DNA from: a virus
DNA length: 23,325 bases
Virus record (IMG/VR): IMGVR_UViG_3300033571_018869
Span: 1 to 23,325 of that record
Direction: 5' to 3' (one strand)
The notes beneath the pieces are model-generated. The model did not search any database. It saw nothing but the letters and a program-made list of their open reading frames with translations, and was not told the origin of the DNA. Positions 5,207 to 16,607 of the stretch are shown piece after piece. The position numbers and the translations under genes are program-made. The number at the start of each line of letters is the position of its first letter. The first letter of the stretch is position 1.

Positions 5207-5360
5207 TTTAACTGATTTTGAAAAAGGACTAGGAAACTTTTCTGATAGAGTAGAAATTATTGTTGGCCTAGAGATGGGTGATAAATTGTCGTCTGATGAG
5301 GCTTATAAAATGATTAAAGAAGAATTTAAAAAACTTAAAAAAATCCATAAGGAAATTTGA
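5199..5360 (+). CDS. Small hypothetical protein, 53 aa
   Basis: Read directly: ATG 5199-5201, TGA 5358-5360. The product MYDLTDFEKGLGNFSDRVEI continues as a charged helix ending in a Lys-rich tail ('KKLKKIHKEI'). It fills the space between the gene at 4985 and thyX, overlapping the former by 8 bases and ending 2 bases before the thyX ATG. It contains the thyX ribosome site. Function unknown. Confidence 0.65.
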   Translation: MYDLTDFEKGLGNFSDRVEIIVGLEMGDKLSSDEAYKMIKEEFKKLKKIHKEI

Positions 5361-5362
5361 TT

Positions 5363-7099
5363 ATGAGACCAGTAAAAGCAGCCGATCTTCTTGAATTAGA
5401 TCCACGTTTACAGACTGTGGTTCTTCAGTGCTATCCTATCCCTGAGCAGGTTATATACCAGGCAGCAAAGTGCGATTATTCTGAAACACCTATTCATGAG
5501 CAAGTAATTCCTTCTCCAACAAAGTGCGGGGAGTGGATTGTAGAAACTCTTTTGGCTAATGATAAAGGCCACTATGGATGCTACAGTGAAGACACTGAGG
5601 TTATGACAGAAAATGGATGGAAACTATGGCCCGAGGTGGGTTATAGTGATAAATTAGCCGCAGTGGATATAGAAACCGGATCTATTAAATTTGAATACCC
5701 AAAGGACCTGCAAAAGTATGATTTGCTACCCGGTGATAAACTTTATTCTATTGAATCCCAGAAAATTTCATTGGCGGTTACTCAAGACCACCGTATGGTA
5801 TATTCATCTAGAACGAATAAAAATTGGCGTTTTTCAACTGCGGCTTCACTAGCCGGTAAACCAGTAATCTACAGGTTGGCCGGGGATTTATGTGACGAAG
5901 ATAGAAAAATTCCAACTGACTGTCCCACCGACTATGATCTTGTGAATACATTCAAATTAGCCGGTTTCTTTTTTGGGGACGGAGTTCGTAGTAATAATAA
6001 ACAACCTAAGTGTTTACGGTTTAGACTAAGGAGACATAGAAAAATCTCATACCTAAAATCATTGGGTTTTGATGTAAGAGAAATGAAAGATGATAGATTT
6101 ACAGTTGATCTAGGTGAAACCGCTACTTGGATTTCCAAAAATTTCTCTAATACTGATGAAAAAGTTTGCCCTAACTTTATTCTTAAGTTACCGAAATATC
6201 TTTTTGATGCATTTTTAGATGGACTCAAAAATAGTGATGGGACTTTAAAAAGGAAAACTTGGGTATATGATTCAACAAACCTTGACGCTCTAGAATTAGT
6301 TCAGGCTGCCTGTCATCTTAATGGTATGTCGGCAACGGTAACTTTAAATCATCCAAATGTAGGAGTAGGACCCGAAAATCATAAACCTTGTTGGAGATTA
6401 CATATTTCAAGTTTATATCCAATTGCTAGATTTGAGGTTCATCAAAGAGGAAGAACTAAAGGAACAGAAAAATTAATTTCTTATACTGGAAAAGTTTATT
6501 GCGCTACGGTTAGCACCGGGGCATTGCTCGTAAGAAGAAATCGTAGGCCTATTATCTCTGGAAATTGTATAGAACATCCGGCAATCACACTTTCTGTTTC
6601 TGGTTATGTTCACAGTGTAATGGTGCAAGGAAGAACTCATCGTATTTCTTCTTGGGATTGTCAATCGAATCGTTATACGGGAGATCGAGTTGTTAAAGTT
6701 GCCAAAGGTGAACTTCCTGTTGAAGACGTTTTTTATGTGCGCCCTGCTGGGCATTATACAAATCGGCAAGGTAAAAAATATGATTGGACCGAAGAACATC
6801 GTCAACGTAAACTAGAACGTATTTTTGATGAGTGTATAGAATATGCCGATTATTATGGACAAGGAATGGCCGAAGAACATATCAGGGATTATCTTCCACA
6901 AGCAATTCGTCAAAACTTTGTAGTATCCTTTAACCTTAGGTCTGTTCTGCATTTTATGGATCTTAGGGCAAAGATGGACGCCCAACTAGAAATTCAGGCT
7001 CTTTGTGCTCAAATAGCACCTCTTCTTGAACAGTGGACTCCAAATGTTTGGAAATACTATGAAGAAAAACGCCTACATAAAGGTAAACTAGCTCCTTAA
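5363..7099 (+). CDS. thyX: Flavin-dependent thymidylate synthase with in-frame intein
   Basis: ThyX methylates dUMP to dTMP with FAD, NADPH and methylene-tetrahydrofolate. The 578-codon frame consists of a 72-residue N-extein, a 329-residue intein (residues 73-401) and a 177-residue C-extein; spliced ThyX would be 249 residues, normal for phage ThyX. Joining the exteins restores 'KGHYG' + 'CIEHPAITL', the conserved ThyX segment. Downstream, 'THRISSWDCQSNRYTG' fits the ThyX signature RHR-x7-S with Thr replacing the first Arg, a change I believe occurs in other phage ThyX. Start ATG 5363 is chosen over TTG 5357 because of AAGGA at 5352-5356 and length. The gene follows a tightly coupled operon with glutaredoxin, consistent with dNTP synthesis during infection. 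Activity requires intein splicing. Confidence 0.93.
   Translation: MRPVKAADLLELDPRLQTVVLQCYPIPEQVIYQAAKCDYSETPIHEQVIPSPTKCGEWIVETLLANDKGHYGCYSEDTEVMTENGWKLWPEVGYSDKLAAVDIETGSIKFEYPKDLQKYDLLPGDKLYSIESQKISLAVTQDHRMVYSSRTNKNWRFSTAASLAGKPVIYRLAGDLCDEDRKIPTDCPTDYDLVNTFKLAGFFFGDGVRSNNKQPKCLRFRLRRHRKISYLKSLGFDVREMKDDRFTVDLGETATWISKNFSNTDEKVCPNFILKLPKYLFDAFLDGLKNSDGTLKRKTWVYDSTNLDALELVQAACHLNGMSATVTLNHPNVGVGPENHKPCWRLHISSLYPIARFEVHQRGRTKGTEKLISYTGKVYCATVSTGALLVRRNRRPIISGNCIEHPAITLSVSGYVHSVMVQGRTHRISSWDCQSNRYTGDRVVKVAKGELPVEDVFYVRPAGHYTNRQGKKYDWTEEHRQRKLERIFDECIEYADYYGQGMAEEHIRDYLPQAIRQNFVVSFNLRSVLHFMDLRAKMDAQLEIQALCAQIAPLLEQWTPNVWKYYEEKRLHKGKLAP
5579..6565 (+). mobile_element. Class 1 intein with LAGLIDADG endonuclease in ThyX
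   Basis: The element begins with Cys1 of 'CYSEDTEVMTENGW' (block A). Block B is 'AVTQDHRMVY' with its Thr and His. Two dodecapeptide (LAGLIDADG-type) motifs are 'LAGFFFGDG' (ThyX residues 199-207) and 'FLDGLKNSDG' (284-293). The C-terminal end is 'VYCATVSTGALLVRRN' then 'RRPIISGN', followed by Cys as the +1 residue. The penultimate residue is Gly instead of the usual His; inteins ending in SGN are known, so splicing is still likely. Boundaries come from exact restoration of the ThyX sequence. The insertion point is a conserved active-site segment, typical of inteins. Confidence 0.93.
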
Positions 7100-7268: not shown

Positions 7269-7522
7269 TGCCGACATATCCGATTATTCATAAAGAAACA
7301 AAAGAGCAAAAAGAAATTACTCTTTCTATTGATGAATGGGAAGAATTTAAACAAGAAAATCCCCTGTGGGTACGAGATTGGTCTGACCCAACTACCGCTC
7401 CAAATGCAGCAGAACTTGGCGAATGGAGAGATCGCCTTAATAAGTCACATCCCTCATGGAATGAAGTCTTGAAAAAATCTAAAAAAGCCGGTGGAATGAA
7501 TTCACAAATGAAAACCCTATGA
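7268..7522 (+). CDS. Conserved small phage protein upstream of phoH, 84 aa
   Basis: Starts at ATG 7268, overlapping the previous stop; an upstream in-frame GTG/ATG-less extension is not needed. The N-terminus 'MPTYPIIHKETKEQKEITLS' and 'EWEEFKQENP' resemble the small 'MPTY..' proteins (FmdB-like, but without zinc-binding Cys) that often sit near phoH in marine T4-like phages. The C-terminus 'HPSWNEVLKKSKKAGGMNSQ' also fits that family's general pattern. Function unknown. The last four bases overlap phoH (ATGA), so the two are co-translated. Confidence 0.7.
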   Translation: MPTYPIIHKETKEQKEITLSIDEWEEFKQENPLWVRDWSDPTTAPNAAELGEWRDRLNKSHPSWNEVLKKSKKAGGMNSQMKTL

Positions 7523-9369
7523 CCAGATCAAGAGCGCAACGCAAGTCCCGACAACAGGCAAACATTCCGTTAAACAAGAAAAAACAGCAATCTCCTTTGG
7601 TTACTCTCGACAATCTTGTTGAACTTCAACCGTTAACTAAAAATCAAGAAAGACTTTTTGATGCTTACGATGATGGTAAAAATATCGTGGCTCATGGATA
7701 TCCTGGAACTGGCAAAGCCCAGCCATTATATTCAAAGATATTAACCCCGAATGGCTGGGTGTTAATGGGTGAACTAAAAGTTGGAGACGAAGTGATAGTC
7801 CCCAAAGGCGAAATTTCAACTGTAACTGGAATATTCCCACAGGGAGATAAGGAAATTTATGAAATTGTATTTCATGATGGATCCAAAACAAGAGCCTGTG
7901 GTGAACATTTATGGGACTGTTATTTTCCACGCGATAAAAATTATAGGCATGGTTCAGATAAAAAATTAGTCACAACTTTGGAAATTATTGAACATCTAGA
8001 CTATCAAAAAAATAAAAAATCTAAAGATTATGTTAATATTTCTATCGATTTAATCACACCAAGAGAAACTAAAGATATTGAACTTCCACTAAATCCTTAT
8101 TTATTGGGTGTTATTATTGGTGATGGATCTGTAGTAAATTTACCCGCGATGATCAGTAATGCTGATGACGAATTATTAGAAAAGGTTTCTAATATATTAA
8201 ATGAAGATTTTAATGGGTGTAATTTAAATAAAATTAAAAGTAATAAATATAACTACTCCATAAGTATAGATTCTTCAATCACTAAGCTAAATCCGGTTTC
8301 ACATATAATTAGAGAATTAAATTTGTATGGGAAAAAATCTTATGAAAAAGAAATTCCTCAAATTTATATGGATTCAGGCATCAATCAAAAATTAATGCTA
8401 CTACAGGGACTTTTGGATACTGATGGTACTGTTGGAAGTACTAGTAGTAATGGTAATGTTTTATTTACATCAACTAGTCATAAATTAGCCCAACAAGTGC
8501 AGGAATTAGTTTGGTCTATTGGCGGATTAGCGACCATTACGCAAAGAATTCCAATCTTCAATCATAAAGGAGAAAAAAAACAAGGTAGAGTTGCGTATAC
8601 TATACACATAAAAACCAGAGATAATAAAAAACTTTTTTATATTTCTAGAAAAAAAGATAGATGTAAAGACACTTATGATTCATTACAATATCGAAGAAGA
8701 ATTAAAGAGATTAATTATATCGGAGTGGAGCCTGCTCAATGTATCATGATTGATGATGTCGATCATCTTTATATTACTGATGATTATATCGTTACTCATA
8801 ACACCATCTGCCTGCTCTACAAGGCCCTGGAAGACGTTCTAGACCCTAAGACGCCATATAAGAAGGTCATCATGGTAAGATCCACTGTAGCCACCAGAGA
8901 CATTGGATTTCTGAAGGGTAGCGTAGAAGAAAAAATTGGTGAGTATGAAAAGCCATATAAGTATATGATTAAAAATCTTTTTGATTTTGATTCTGATGAA
9001 AAGTATGAGATGCTTTATGGGAACCTAAAGGCCCAGAAGAGTTTTTACTTTATGCCAACGAGTTTTATTCGTGGGATGACAATTGACGAGGCGGTTATAA
9101 TTGTTGATGAATTTTCTAATCTAAATTTTCATGAATTAGAAAGTATCATTACACGAGTAGGTGTAGACAGTAAGATTCATTTCAGTGGCGACATTGCCCA
9201 ATCGGATCTTATAAAAAAATCAGAAAAAGACGGAGCCGTATTGTTTTTGAAGATTCTTGGTCAAATGGAATCTTTTGAGACGATTAATTTTGGTATTGAT
9301 GACATTTGTAGGTCCTCTTTAGTTAAAGAATTTATAATCGCCAAAGAGTCGCTTGGTGCTTGTAATTAG
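7519..9369 (+). CDS. phoH: PhoH-like ATPase with in-frame intein
   Basis: A PhoH-family P-loop ATPase/NTPase; in bacteria PhoH belongs to the phosphate regulon, and phoH is a common auxiliary gene of marine phages, with its role in infection unsettled. The 616-codon frame holds a 66-residue N-extein, a 362-residue intein (residues 67-428) and a 188-residue C-extein; spliced PhoH is 254 residues, typical of the short phage form. Splicing joins 'GYPGTGK' to 'TICLL', recreating Walker A. Walker B is 'AVIIVDEFSN' (Asp530), and 'HFSGDIAQSD' is the sensor-like segment. The first four bases overlap the upstream gene. The C-extein just after the insertion is noticeably GC-richer than its surroundings. 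Without splicing the ATPase would be inactive. Confidence 0.94.
   Translation: MTRSRAQRKSRQQANIPLNKKKQQSPLVTLDNLVELQPLTKNQERLFDAYDDGKNIVAHGYPGTGKAQPLYSKILTPNGWVLMGELKVGDEVIVPKGEISTVTGIFPQGDKEIYEIVFHDGSKTRACGEHLWDCYFPRDKNYRHGSDKKLVTTLEIIEHLDYQKNKKSKDYVNISIDLITPRETKDIELPLNPYLLGVIIGDGSVVNLPAMISNADDELLEKVSNILNEDFNGCNLNKIKSNKYNYSISIDSSITKLNPVSHIIRELNLYGKKSYEKEIPQIYMDSGINQKLMLLQGLLDTDGTVGSTSSNGNVLFTSTSHKLAQQVQELVWSIGGLATITQRIPIFNHKGEKKQGRVAYTIHIKTRDNKKLFYISRKKDRCKDTYDSLQYRRRIKEINYIGVEPAQCIMIDDVDHLYITDDYIVTHNTICLLYKALEDVLDPKTPYKKVIMVRSTVATRDIGFLKGSVEEKIGEYEKPYKYMIKNLFDFDSDEKYEMLYGNLKAQKSFYFMPTSFIRGMTIDEAVIIVDEFSNLNFHELESIITRVGVDSKIHFSGDIAQSDLIKKSEKDGAVLFLKILGQMESFETINFGIDDICRSSLVKEFIIAKESLGACN
7717..8802 (+). 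mobile_element. Class 3-like (WCT) intein with LAGLIDADG endonuclease in PhoH Walker A
   Basis: Starts with Ala ('AQPLYSKILTPNGWVLMGEL'), not Cys or Ser, and ends 'YIVTHN' before a +1 Thr. The class 3 triad is visible: Trp132 two residues after His130 in block B ('GEHLWDC'), Cys408 in block F ('AQCIMID'), and Thr426 before His427-Asn428 in block G. Class 3 inteins use the block F Cys as first nucleophile and Ser/Thr at +1, which fits. Two LAGLIDADG-type motifs occur, 'LLGVIIGDG' (195-203) and 'LLQGLLDTDG' (295-304). The boundaries restore an intact Walker A. The coding sequence is much more AT-rich than the flanking C-extein. Confidence 0.92.
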
Positions 9370-9371
9370 GT

Positions 9372-9415
9372 AAGATCAGTGAAGGAATATAAATATTTAT
9401 TCTTTCACTGATCTT
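9372..9415 (+). promoter_or_regulatory. 18-bp hairpin with late-promoter box in its apex
   Basis: Bases 9372-9389 pair with 9398-9415 (18 bp, one G-U), with an 8-base loop at 9390-9397. TATAAATA lies at 9388-9395, at the apex. The stem ends 4 bases before the endonuclease ATG at 9420. On read-through (early) RNA it would fold and could both terminate phoH transcripts and block ribosome access. RNA started from the late box would lack the left arm and stay open. T4 I-TevI is controlled this way. There is no T-run after the stem, so a simple terminator is less likely. Confidence 0.75.
9388..9395 (+). promoter_or_regulatory. Late promoter box TATAAATA
   Basis: An exact T4 late consensus at the tip of the 9372-9415 hairpin, 24 bases before the endonuclease ATG. 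Predicted transcription start about 9400-9403, downstream of the hairpin's left arm. Confidence 0.6.
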
Positions 9416-9419
9416 GTTT

Positions 9420-10127
9420 ATGTATCACTTCATTTATAAAACATATTCCACATCAGGCTTATATTATTATGGTAGACATAGCACTGATGATATTGATGAT
9501 GGGTATTTAGGTAGTGGAAAGTGGATTAGATCTATTAAAGATAAATCTAAACTTAGAAGAGATATCGTATTATTTTGTGAAAATTTTGAAGAATTACTTA
9601 AAAGCGAAAAAGAATATATCTCCAACCATATAAATGATCCTAAATGCATGAATTTTAATGAAAATCCTGTTGGTTTTTCTAGTATTAATAATCCAAATAA
9701 ATTATTGAAAGGATCTAGTGTATTAAGCGAAAGACATAAAGGAGAAAAAAATGGCATGTATGGTAAAAAACATACTGAAGAATGTAAAAATCATTTAAGT
9801 GAAGTTATGTCTGGAGAAAATGGCCCCTTTTATGGGAAAAATTATACTGAGGAAGCTAAAGAAAAAATACGACAGAGAAGATTAGGAAGTAAATTTTCTC
9901 CAGATACTATTGAAAAATTGAAAAAAAGGTTTCCGGGAACAACTCATCCTAGAGCTAAATTAACTGAAGAGGAAATTTTGGAAATATATAAACTTTCTTG
10001 GGAAGGAAATTTGGCACAAAAGCAGATTGGTGAAATGTTTGGAATTGGACAAGGCCATGTAACTAACATTAAAAATGGAATTGTTTGGAACAAAATCACA
10101 AAACACAAAATAACCAATAATTTTTAA
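9420..10127 (+). CDS. GIY-YIG homing endonuclease with NUMOD3 repeats and C-terminal HTH
   Basis: A 235-residue free-standing homing endonuclease. The GIY-YIG nuclease domain is at residues about 3-70: 'FIYKTYSTSGLYYYGRHST' has the strand pair and the catalytic Arg19, and 'LLKSEKEYI' (about 60-68) supplies a candidate metal-binding Glu. Two NUMOD3-type DNA-binding repeats follow, 'GEKNGMYGKKHTEE' and 'GENGPFYGKNYTEEAKEKI' (about 107-152). A helix-turn-helix is at about 181-223 ('KLTEEEILEIY', 'AQKQIGEMFGIGQGHVTNIK'). This order matches Seg/I-TevI-type enzymes. Start ATG 9420 follows the regulatory hairpin; TTG 9414 would lie inside the stem. It directly follows phoH, whose sequence may be its target. 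Codon use is very AT-rich, like the inteins. Confidence 0.9.
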   Translation: MYHFIYKTYSTSGLYYYGRHSTDDIDDGYLGSGKWIRSIKDKSKLRRDIVLFCENFEELLKSEKEYISNHINDPKCMNFNENPVGFSSINNPNKLLKGSSVLSERHKGEKNGMYGKKHTEECKNHLSEVMSGENGPFYGKNYTEEAKEKIRQRRLGSKFSPDTIEKLKKRFPGTTHPRAKLTEEEILEIYKLSWEGNLAQKQIGEMFGIGQGHVTNIKNGIVWNKITKHKITNNF

Positions 10128-10303: not shown

Positions 10304-10981
10304 ATGACTTTTACACATGTTGAGATAGATTTACCCAAATTAAAAAGAGAACACATAAATGGGGTTCGCTATTATACAATCAATGAAGAAAACAAAAAGC
10401 TAGTCTCCATAACTTCTGTTATTAGCAATTATAACAAAGAAAAATTCTCACTCTGGAGAAAAAAAGTCGGAGACGAAGAAGCCGATAGAATAGTAAAAAA
10501 TTCTACCAACAGGGGCACTGACACTCACACTCTTATTGAAAATTACCTCTTAAACAAAGATCTTCCTAAAGTACATCAAATTATTTCAAATTACTTATTT
10601 AATTTTGCCAAACCCGATTTAAATAGAATCAACAACATTTATGCGCTTGAAGGGGCTCTTTATAGTCTCACTTTAGGCGTGGCCGGAACCGTAGATTGCA
10701 TCGCAGAATTCGACGGTGAACTTTCAATCATTGATTTTAAGACATCGAAAACTCCTAAACCAGTAGGGTGGCTTGAGGGATACTTCACACAGACGATGTT
10801 TTATGGAATGGCCTTTTATGAAATGACTGGAATCAAAATTAAAAAATTAGTTATAATTATGACATGCGAAAATAGTGAATGTGTTGTTTATGAAGAAAGA
10901 GACCTTAAAAAGTACATGAAATTGGTTGTTAAATATATCGATAAATTTGTACAAGATATGTCAAAAACACTCTCCGATTAA
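10304..10981 (+). CDS. RecB/Cas4-like PD-(D/E)XK exonuclease
   Basis: A 225-residue nuclease of the PD-(D/E)XK superfamily (PDDEXK_1 type). The motifs are in the right order: 'NRGTDTHTLIE' with His75 and Glu79, Glu116, 'GVAGTVDCIAEFDGELSIID' with Asp131 and Asp144, 'DFKTSK' with Lys146, and the 'QTMFYGMAFYEM' Q-x3-Y motif (Gln163, Tyr167). RecB-family nucleases use Asp/Glu/Lys to bind Mg2+ and cut DNA ends. It leads the replication cluster gp33-gp59-gp32, suggesting a role in recombination-dependent replication or host DNA degradation. Cyanophages often carry such an exonuclease beside these genes. The start has AAGGA five bases upstream. No iron-sulphur Cys cluster is seen, unlike Cas4. Confidence 0.87.
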   Translation: MTFTHVEIDLPKLKREHINGVRYYTINEENKKLVSITSVISNYNKEKFSLWRKKVGDEEADRIVKNSTNRGTDTHTLIENYLLNKDLPKVHQIISNYLFNFAKPDLNRINNIYALEGALYSLTLGVAGTVDCIAEFDGELSIIDFKTSKTPKPVGWLEGYFTQTMFYGMAFYEMTGIKIKKLVIIMTCENSECVVYEERDLKKYMKLVVKYIDKFVQDMSKTLSD

Positions 10982-10988
10982 TAAGATC

Positions 10989-11261
10989 ATGAAAACATTT
11001 AACTATAAACAAGAATTAAAAAAAGAATTAGAAAAAAAATTTCATTCTCCTGAAAAATTTTCTCAAGAAATCGAGAACTTAATTGTCAAAAAGCCAGAAC
11101 TTAATTATATTACGGCTATTATAGAATACTGTGAAGAAAATGATATTGATGTGGAACTAGTTCCAAAATTAATTACAAAACCACTTAAAGAAAAACTTAA
11201 GTGGAATGCAACTGAATTAAACTTTTTGAAGAAAACTTCGCTGGGTAAATTACCGATTTAA
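10989..11261 (+). CDS. 33: Late-transcription coactivator gp33
   Basis: A 90-residue protein with the gp33 pattern: helix 'SQEIENLIVKKPELNYITAI' followed by 'IEYCEENDIDVELVPKLI', then 'KPLKEKLKWNATELNFLKK' and a C-terminal 'LGKLPI'. In T4, gp33 binds the RNA polymerase beta flap and links the gp45 sliding clamp and gp55 to late promoters; the short hydrophobic C-terminus is the clamp-binding end. T4 gp33 is 112 residues. Identity is supported by T4 gene order 33-59-32, kept here. The ATG at 10989 is preferred over 10926, which lies inside the nuclease gene. No strong ribosome site is seen. It should drive the TATAAATA/CTAAATA promoters in this window. Confidence 0.83.
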   Translation: MKTFNYKQELKKELEKKFHSPEKFSQEIENLIVKKPELNYITAIIEYCEENDIDVELVPKLITKPLKEKLKWNATELNFLKKTSLGKLPI

Positions 11262-11262
11262 A

Positions 11263-11844
11263 ATGTCTCCCTTTGAAGTTTATGAATTGTATCTGGCCAT
11301 AAAGATGCATTTCACTCAGCCTTCTTATGATTACTTTAAATATTCCGGTAAAGTAAAATCAAATATCGAGTCCTTTAATAAAAGAAAAGACCGATATTTC
11401 TTTGAAAAACTATCAAGAAAAAAAACTAAAAAAGATATCATCGAATACTTTGTTTCTAACTTTATAGAAACATCTGATCCAAATAAGATGTGGGTTGGTG
11501 AAATGAAGTCCTCTGGGGATGAAAATTATACAAAATGGAAAGGAAGGATTCAGTCTTTTACTTACTTATTTGAGCAAGACCTTAATTTATTGACTGATAA
11601 TTGTCATTTATTTGAGGCAATTATTTCAAAATCAGGACACCCTAAAAGCATAAAATCTTACTTAGCCGGAAAGATTTCATTAGAGACTTTAGTTGTTCTT
11701 GATGATCTAACTTCTTTTACTAGTAAGCTATCAGATTCTTATGATCCGGTTTTAAATTTAATTAAAACTAAGATACATAAGTATAGACAATTTTTTGACT
11801 ATAATAAGGATACTGCTATCCAAAAACTTAGACAAAAAATGTAA
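11263..11844 (+). CDS. 59: gp59 replicative helicase loader
   Basis: A 193-residue protein matching T4 gp59 (217 residues) in size, position and style: N-terminal 'MSPFEVYELYLAIKMHFTQP' and 'YDYFKYSGKV', then 'KRKDRYFFEKLSRK' and 'IEYFVSNFIE'. The C-terminal helices contain 'EAIISKSGHPKSIKSYLAGK'. gp59 binds fork DNA and gp32 and loads the gp41 helicase onto gp32-covered ssDNA. It lies between gp33 and gp32, exactly as in T4, separated from gp33 by one base. The protein is basic overall, as expected for fork binding. Confidence 0.88.
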   Translation: MSPFEVYELYLAIKMHFTQPSYDYFKYSGKVKSNIESFNKRKDRYFFEKLSRKKTKKDIIEYFVSNFIETSDPNKMWVGEMKSSGDENYTKWKGRIQSFTYLFEQDLNLLTDNCHLFEAIISKSGHPKSIKSYLAGKISLETLVVLDDLTSFTSKLSDSYDPVLNLIKTKIHKYRQFFDYNKDTAIQKLRQKM

Positions 11845-15947: not shown

Positions 15948-16607
15948 ATGGCCCCAAAAATTAGAACTTTATCGGAAATTAAATCTAAACTTTTGCGGCC
16001 TGCTACAACCAGCCATTTTGAATGCGTATTTACTCCACCAGGAGATGTAAAAAAATTCATTGAAGGCCGTAAACTTAATATAACACCAATTACCGAAGAA
16101 AAAATAAACATAAGTTGCTGTGATGCTTCTCTTCCAGGATCAACATTACAAACTGCCACTTTAACTGATTCTTATACTGGCGTCACTGAAAATTATGCAT
16201 ATAGAAGATCATATGATAACCGTGCAGACTTTTCTTTTTATGTAGATAATTCTGGAGCGGGAGCGGGAGATTACTATTCAGTTATTTTATTTTTTGAAAA
16301 TTGGATTTCTTATATCGTCGGGGAAGATAGTTTAAATGATCAAAGTACAACTAATTATTTCTACCGGGTTAATTTTCCTGAAAATTACATAGCAAAGGCT
16401 TTAACCATTTATAAATTTGAGAAAGATTATAACACAAGCCGAAAATATTTAAAATATGACTTTATTGGTGCGTTTCCTCTTTCAATTGCATCAACCCCAG
16501 TTTCTTATGAGTCTTCTCAATTGTTAAAATATACGGTATCTTTTTCTTATTTGAGATATGTTTTATCTACTGAGACTGGCCCACTTCAACCTACTTCTAG
16601 ACCATAA
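15948..16607 (+). CDS. Tail-tube-fold protein (gp19/gp54-like)
   Basis: 219 residues. The T4 tail-tube fold pattern is present: an entry strand 'TSHFECVFTPPGD', 'ISCCDASLPGSTLQTATLTD', 'YAYRRSYDNRADFSFYVDNS', the helix 'YYSVILFFENWISYIVGEDS' and the closing strands 'YDFIGAFPLSIASTPVSYES' and 'LLKYTVSFSYLRYVLS'. The T4 members are gp19 (163 residues, the tube itself) and gp54 (320 residues, tube initiator). Length and position beside 48 and 26 make gp54 as plausible as gp19, so no symbol is given. A late promoter-like box lies 24 bases upstream; no Shine-Dalgarno sequence is seen. Confidence 0.8.
   Translation: MAPKIRTLSEIKSKLLRPATTSHFECVFTPPGDVKKFIEGRKLNITPITEEKINISCCDASLPGSTLQTATLTDSYTGVTENYAYRRSYDNRADFSFYVDNSGAGAGDYYSVILFFENWISYIVGEDSLNDQSTTNYFYRVNFPENYIAKALTIYKFEKDYNTSRKYLKYDFIGAFPLSIASTPVSYESSQLLKYTVSFSYLRYVLSTETGPLQPTSRP

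Follow-up and report, generated by a model that had tools for sequence, protein, structure and literature searches.

A covarying hairpin with an apical late promoter box before a phoH-linked homing endonuclease, a probable Shine-Dalgarno-independent variant of the I-TevI switch

Known endonuclease leaders and the phoH locus

The homing endonuclease I-TevI of phage T4 is silent early and expressed late, its late RNA lacking one arm of a hairpin that blocks the translation start (PMC2988022, PMC3014915), and the protein represses its own late promoter through an operator resembling its homing site (PMC2988022). A hairpin at the translation start combined with a late promoter is also described for two free-standing homing endonucleases, segB of T4 and mobE of phage Aeh1 (PMC2988022), while T4 gene e (lysozyme) and gene 49 apply a like switch logic to ordinary late genes contained in early transcripts (PMC3014915).

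The locus compared here with these systems lies in the window, the whole 23,325-base stretch of a virus record that was analysed, whose phoH and adjoining genes match those of T4-like cyanophages (Table 1). Like the td intron leader of I-TevI, it combines a GIY-YIG endonuclease with a late promoter so placed that late RNA would lose one arm. I-TevI is encoded within a group I intron, and a consensus Shine-Dalgarno sequence is masked by its hairpin, whereas the endonuclease in the window is free-standing and has no Shine-Dalgarno; the resemblance between the I-TevI operator and its homing site is weakly mirrored in the window. Compared with segB and mobE, the endonuclease belongs to a different subfamily or fold (mobE is an HNH enzyme), and its leader differs in sequence and geometry, with the box at the apex and both arms wholly upstream of the ATG. 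The leaders of T4 e and 49 do not belong to mobile elements, and in the published cases the Shine-Dalgarno, the AUG or both are masked. In seg43 of Aeromonas phage 25, as in the window, a stable hairpin stands immediately upstream of the start signals of a Seg endonuclease and not over them (PMC2988022); seg43 leaves its ribosome-binding site free below the stem, whereas the window has no ribosome-binding motif and carries a late box at the apex.

Set against the I-TevI/segB/mobE class, the window leader shares a start-closing hairpin (as computed), a late promoter placed so as to drop the 5′ arm, and compensatory pairing. A Shine-Dalgarno sequestered in the stem was looked for and is absent, and because of this the leader is filed as a Shine-Dalgarno-independent variant of the switch rather than as a plain member. 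The original prediction had proposed the I-TevI logic for a free-standing enzyme outside an intron; that logic fits but is not new, given the published segB and mobE cases (PMC2988022, PMC3014915). Its parallel with T4 stands as far as the late RNA is concerned, which would lack the left arm and has a start predicted to be open, but not for the Shine-Dalgarno, since here there is none to sequester. What sets the leader apart from the T4 and Aeh1 cases is the absence of a Shine-Dalgarno to mask, the apex-centred box, the wide spread, and a second, terminator-containing form.

Table 1. Features of the phoH-endonuclease locus (window positions) and of the second leader form (positions within the named loci)
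Feature	Position	Strand	Basis or remark
phoH	7519..9369	+	Pfam PhoH 1e-28; stop codon 9367-9369; gene 5′ of the hairpin and source of read-through RNA
LAGLIDADG intein in phoH	within 7519..9369	+	Pfam LAGLIDADG_3 1.4e-15
phoH 3′ coding segment (VKEF), candidate homing-site relative	9322..9335	+	best phoH match to the leader core; weak, post hoc
Hairpin left arm AAGATCAGTGAAGGAATA	9372..9389	+	only in read-through RNA; fold and covariation in 11 leaders
T4-type late promoter box TATAAATA at apex	9388..9395	+	equivalent place in 10/11 hairpin-bearing relatives
Hairpin right arm TATTCTTTCACTGATCTT	9398..9415	+	just 5′ of the start codon; without Shine-Dalgarno
Predicted late-transcript 5′ end	9401	+	inferred; about 6 nt after the box
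Free-standing GIY-YIG/NUMOD3 homing endonuclease	9420..10127	+	235 aa; C-terminal helix-turn-helix; NUMOD3 5e-14
PD-(D/E)XK exonuclease	10304..10981	+	Pfam PDDEXK_1 7e-6; directly after phoH in endonuclease-free relatives
Second form, S-SRM01 (six)	L320:8438-8538, 11252-11348, 15964-16059; L321:2411-2515; L318:17958-18056; L327:12426-12522
Second form, B23 (three)	L199:1184-1305; L195:19652-19760; L189:1450-1546
Second form, uncultivated contigs G003 (two) and G001 (one)	L184:6995-7085, L183:3379-3472, L178:10289-10389	-
Orphan second-form copy before a 22-codon ORF	L177:12785-12891 = contig G001 112785-112891	-	covariance model only

Sequence analysis bears out an 18-bp near-perfect stem, its placement four bases before the endonuclease ATG at 9420, and a late box at its apex, all three as predicted. 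The arms form 17 Watson-Crick pairs and one G-U pair around an 8-nt loop, the first two bases of TATAAATA lie in the stem, and as RNA the stem can be extended through wobble pairs to 9370-9417. The RNA fold of 9366-9422 reaches -27.2 kcal/mol (z = -9.0), a value attained by 0 of 200 shuffles. The box alone is at chance frequency, with three occurrences of TATAAATA in the window against 3.5 expected; what exceeds chance is its conserved apex position together with the covariation of the arms. An Rfam scan of the window returns nothing at E below 0.4.

The endonuclease matches PHROG 314 (homing endonuclease) at 4e-25, its family profile matches the DNA-binding domain of I-TevI (1i3j/1t2t, E 0.0026), and the GIY-YIG residues Y16, G18, R19, H20, E63 and N78 are invariant in an alignment of 15-16 relatives. 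Pfam GIY-YIG reports no match for the window protein, the only, sub-threshold match being in the relative L004, and a Foldseek search with its AlphaFold model (pLDDT 70) gives helix-turn-helix-type matches only and does not confirm the GIY-YIG fold; the N-terminal strand-strand-helix-strand-helix order of the model agrees with that fold. By its GIY-YIG residues and its NUMOD3/helix-turn-helix part, the protein is assigned to the free-standing Seg-like GIY-YIG type. Its start codon is likely ATG 9420 rather than TTG 9414, because relatives align from that Met.

A replication-gene operon, thyX-phoH-...-gp33-gp59-gp32, surrounds the endonuclease, and in phage B23 gp33 is encoded beside the corresponding locus. 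The cyanomyoviruses examined in an earlier study all carry gp55 and all use NATAAATA (PMC2984593). Both ThyX (5357-7099) and PhoH (7519-9369) apparently bear inteins; the LAGLIDADG intein of PhoH sits in the P-loop, and B23 PhoH has no intein. This puts three homing elements into one 5-kb span, two of them in or adjoining phoH. In addition, an HNH endonuclease ORF (41-439) opens the contig (window 1-439), preceded by TATAAATA at 11-18 within a small palindrome, ACCTGTATATTATAAATATAGGT, in a leader cut off by the contig end.

Conservation, covariation and the predicted switch

Searches of IMG/VR yield about two dozen loci in which a window-type endonuclease follows phoH, with 15 distinct leaders including that of the window. 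The box-tipped hairpin is kept, with diverged arms, in 11 of these leaders (window, L003, L015, L017, L097, L099, L100, L104, L107, L110 and L021), its apex box being TATAAATA in ten and TATATATA in L015. Two further leaders form other hairpins: L109 folds its start codon into a different stem, and the leader of L004/L005 is segB-like, its start codon paired in the stem and its loop carrying a Shine-Dalgarno. The hairpin is lost in the remaining two, L112, which has no clear hairpin, and L102/L103, which has lost the left arm. Relatives that keep the endonuclease and not the pairing, the counter-case named in the original prediction, thus account for two of the 15 leaders, and the outcome of this check favours the prediction. 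In the endonuclease protein tree, hairpin-bearing copies are spread across and exceptions are scattered. Since the stem ends 8-15 nt before the ATG in several relatives, occlusion there would be partial. An apical-core pattern scan of IMG/VR recovers, beyond the known relative L012 (= L003), chance matches only (L011, L013, L014).

Two of these loci show natural changes. In L102 (1184-1227) and L103, the left arm is deleted, the box overlaps the phoH stop codon, and the right arm is predicted to pair instead over 24 nt with the phoH coding sequence GGTTTAGTTAAGGAATATC. In L003 (3001-3706; = L012, L114), the endonuclease is frameshifted relative to that in L002 of a near-identical phage, and the hairpin is intact.

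The covariation check proposed for the two arms is positive: in 7 of 18 pairs both bases have changed while pairing is preserved (4.2 would be expected from shuffles), and the covariation score is 0.338 against 0.184 in shuffled data, with none of 500 shuffles reaching the observed value. Sliding the arms by 1-3 bases gives far lower covariation in every register. Left arms fit the right arm of their own leader better than the right arms of relatives (9 in 200,000 permutations); as sequences within a family are related, such permutation numbers fall short of strict probabilities. Among the internal wobbles with Watson-Crick pairs on either side, nine are G-U and none is A-C on the coding strand, and this one-sidedness points to a structure in coding-strand RNA rather than to a DNA palindrome.

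These data bear directly on a different reading, in which the palindrome is mainly a DNA operator where the endonuclease binds its own promoter, the leader core resembles a homing site in phoH, and the hairpin is incidental. Consistent with such an operator, conservation is higher in the left-arm core GTRAARGAR-TATAAATA than at the stem base, the best phoH match of the core falls on VKEY/VKEF codons near the phoH end, adjoining the insertion point, and one of the I-TevI DNA-binding domain entries matched by the family profile is 1t2t. Yet the basal arms differ among relatives while staying complementary, and wobbles confined to G-U are not explained by a protein-bound DNA palindrome. The phoH match ranks first of about 1,100 offsets in a pooled test but is not top in single-locus scans; it was noticed before it was tested, and it is weaker than the 15/20 of I-TevI. 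Identity of operator and homing site is rejected as a strong claim because the phoH site does not come first in the single-locus scans, and the resemblance of the leader core to a possible homing site at the phoH 3′ end is kept as a lead. An operator is thus an unlikely main explanation, and one that could coexist with an RNA switch.

Comparison with loci free of the endonuclease delimits the inserted segment. At 62 of the 67 endonuclease-free viral loci in which the next gene could be read, the exonuclease follows phoH directly, and at nearly all 62 the phoH stop and the exonuclease start overlap by 1 or 4 nt. The endonuclease is present or absent at this fixed phoH-exonuclease junction; where present, it comes with a leader of 48-65 nt (35 nt in L102/L103) and often re-creates the overlap with the exonuclease start. 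Because endonuclease-free phoH runs almost straight into the next gene, the hairpin came with the endonuclease, as part of a unit inserted into a tight operon junction, so that RNA of the phoH operon would read through both arms. The corresponding junction of phage B23 holds a different GIY-YIG endonuclease with its own leader, of the second kind described below. In Sinorhizobium phage phiM19 (L010:1497-1503), which belongs to a non-marine phage group, a 41% identical endonuclease lies directly after phoH without a leader, the phoH stop codon touching the ATG, and for this reason the site preference is wider than the leader.

The same comparison weighs against the hairpin as an intrinsic terminator or 3′-end stabiliser of phoH mRNA. 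A consensus scan does report a terminator-like site at 9370-9417, but only 5 of 20 pairs are G-C, the stem is followed by TTATGTATCA rather than a U-run, U-runs are not conserved in relatives, and endonuclease-free phoH loci, in which the phoH stop overlaps or almost reaches the following start, lack the hairpin. Given the scarcity of G-C pairs, the missing U-run and this absence, the intrinsic-terminator reading is rejected as unlikely, and the terminator-or-stabiliser explanation as a whole is very improbable. Just as improbable is a processing site, RNase III-like or RNase E, that would remove or mature read-through RNA: a double-strand RNase could plausibly act on a near-perfect RNA stem of 18-20 bp, and RNase E has been considered as a processing enzyme for T4 segB and segG (PMC2988022), but processing leaves unexplained the constant late box at the apex and its position relative to the ATG, and the alternative hairpins of L109 and L004 preserve occlusion of the start codon and not the stem itself.

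The I-TevI-like reading of hairpin and box, by comparison, is well supported by the sequences. The hairpin would act as a transcript-origin switch of the inserted homing-endonuclease unit: read-through RNA would hold both arms and form a stem of 18-20 bp that stops 2-4 nt short of the ATG, and the closed stem would keep the 30S subunit from loading. A gp55/gp33-type late promoter at the apex would start RNA near 9401, without the left arm, leaving an open leader of about 19 nt that permits translation late, with the endonuclease presumably silent early. With no Shine-Dalgarno in the leader, the block would operate by occluding the initiation region and not by masking a ribosome-binding motif.

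Computation agrees with the expectation that read-through RNA folds and late RNA is translatable. Specifically, opening positions -18 to +13 around the window ATG is predicted to cost 22.8 kcal/mol in read-through RNA versus 5.5 kcal/mol in late RNA, a closed versus an open start, where the late start at 9401 assumes T4 late-promoter spacing. The read-through cost exceeds the late cost in 15 of 15 loci, least in L097 and in the exceptions L102 and L112; over the narrower range -12 to +13, L100 and L097 give little or no predicted gain. A Shine-Dalgarno is absent from 13 of 14 leaders examined, the window included, and present only in L004; without it, late translation may be weak. Its core motif accompanies 22% of non-endonuclease late genes in these phages versus 70% in T4. 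Collectively, an I-TevI-like transcript-origin switch that forms part of the homing-endonuclease unit is the likely explanation, with transcript start, early silence and late translation as its inferred elements.

Comparable leaders in marine phages and a second form

The opening-cost scan extends the comparison to other genes. In its discovery part, it covers 76 genes, namely all those that follow a NATAAATA box in phage B23, the window and four related contigs. The nine highest-ranked are all homing endonucleases, comprising several GIY-YIG types and one LAGLIDADG-like type whose PHROG match carries the label HNH. A difference of 9 kcal/mol is reached by 9/16 endonucleases versus 0/60 other genes, the contrast persists without the phoH family (Mann-Whitney p = 1.3e-4), and the late-transcript opening cost is alike in both groups. 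Among T4 controls, e (lysozyme), 49, I-TevI and segB head the list; the mobE control in Aeh1 is not recovered by the opening-cost scan, few Aeh1 late boxes having met the start-distance rule. With the threshold fixed beforehand, the held-out set of S-PM2, P-SSM2, S-SRM01, S-SCSM2R, S-SKS1 and non-marine Aeh1 shows a difference of at least 9 in 8/23 endonucleases versus 8/160 others (Fisher p 1.2e-4, Mann-Whitney p 1.6e-6); these numbers are approximate, endonuclease labels being taken from Pfam/PHROG for the leading discovery genes and otherwise assigned by eye. For a simpler measure, the split-stem score, p is 1e-8 over all genomes and 2.6e-6 for the held-out ones. Accessibility and split-stem scores replaced a simple contiguous-hairpin scan, which was too narrow and misses long-loop forms, and whose box-permutation controls were few in number and uninformative. 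Taken over 11 marine records, leaders of a comparable kind show strong enrichment ahead of homing endonucleases from several families. With this enrichment in held-out genomes, the z of -9 and conservation with covariation, a chance palindrome around a chance A/T-rich box is refuted by the comparative data and its probability is practically nil, even though TATAAATA alone occurs at chance frequency in the AT-rich window. The open-access literature, to which the search was confined, holds no report of hairpin/late-promoter endonuclease leaders in marine phages.

Several individual loci show related arrangements. An endonuclease-VII-like endonuclease of S-SRM01 (126142; L324:6142) has a perfect 20-bp stem, ATTCATACCTTTTTCATTAC/GTAATGAAAAAGGTATGAAT, with a late box at the apex and a purine-rich AAAAAGG and the ATG inside the right arm, a window-type hairpin architecture on an unrelated nuclease. 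At the endonuclease genes S-PM2 136653, S-SRM01 209819 and B23 168276, a terminator-like hairpin with a T-run abuts the late box and there is no start-closing stem; the S-PM2 and S-SRM01 copies are alike and probably belong to the F-CphI family. In T4 (NC_000866), a Seg endonuclease, likely segE, and a divergent gene of 226 aa, likely inh, flank an imperfect palindrome at 112021/112042 that carries late boxes on both strands, and its fold closes both start codons.

A longer, second leader form is common to 12 endonuclease genes of different families (Table 1). It consists, in order, of a late-type box, a short stem P1, a left arm, an intrinsic terminator, a second late box and a right arm complementary to the left arm, followed after about 10 nt by the start codon. 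Its arms show compensatory changes at 10 of 12 pairs, and P1 covaries as well, the observed pairing being reached by 275 of 50,000 permutations. The upstream box is present at near-constant spacing in 13/13 second-form leaders, counting one orphan copy, against 0/94 background windows. A covariance model finds the 12 leaders and the orphan and nothing else strong in 1.67 Mb, and Rfam gives no match at or above the gathering score in the seven second-form stretches scanned. The orphan has the look of a leader whose endonuclease gene has been lost. In this form, the upstream box and the terminator could produce a small RNA of about 60-80 nt, an exposed segment of which would be complementary to the 5′ leader in the late mRNA of the endonuclease itself; this small-RNA reading is offered as a hypothesis only.

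Taken further, marine T4-like phages might share a late promoter within a covarying split stem that guards free-standing homing endonucleases of several unrelated families without Shine-Dalgarno masking, the second form adding a terminator and thereby uniting a read-through lock and antisense control in one cassette; this wider proposal is tentative, and the balance of judgement lies against it.

The signature of a late box within a split stem was of help in recognising endonucleases, some of them among proteins that had been mis-named or carried a hypothetical annotation. Very different selfish endonucleases of marine phages have like leaders, without the Shine-Dalgarno on which the T4 examples depend, which suggests that the T4 trick of silencing a homing endonuclease until late is not a coliphage curiosity. 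It thereby becomes testable why both phages and their endonuclease parasites restrict cutting so consistently to late infection.
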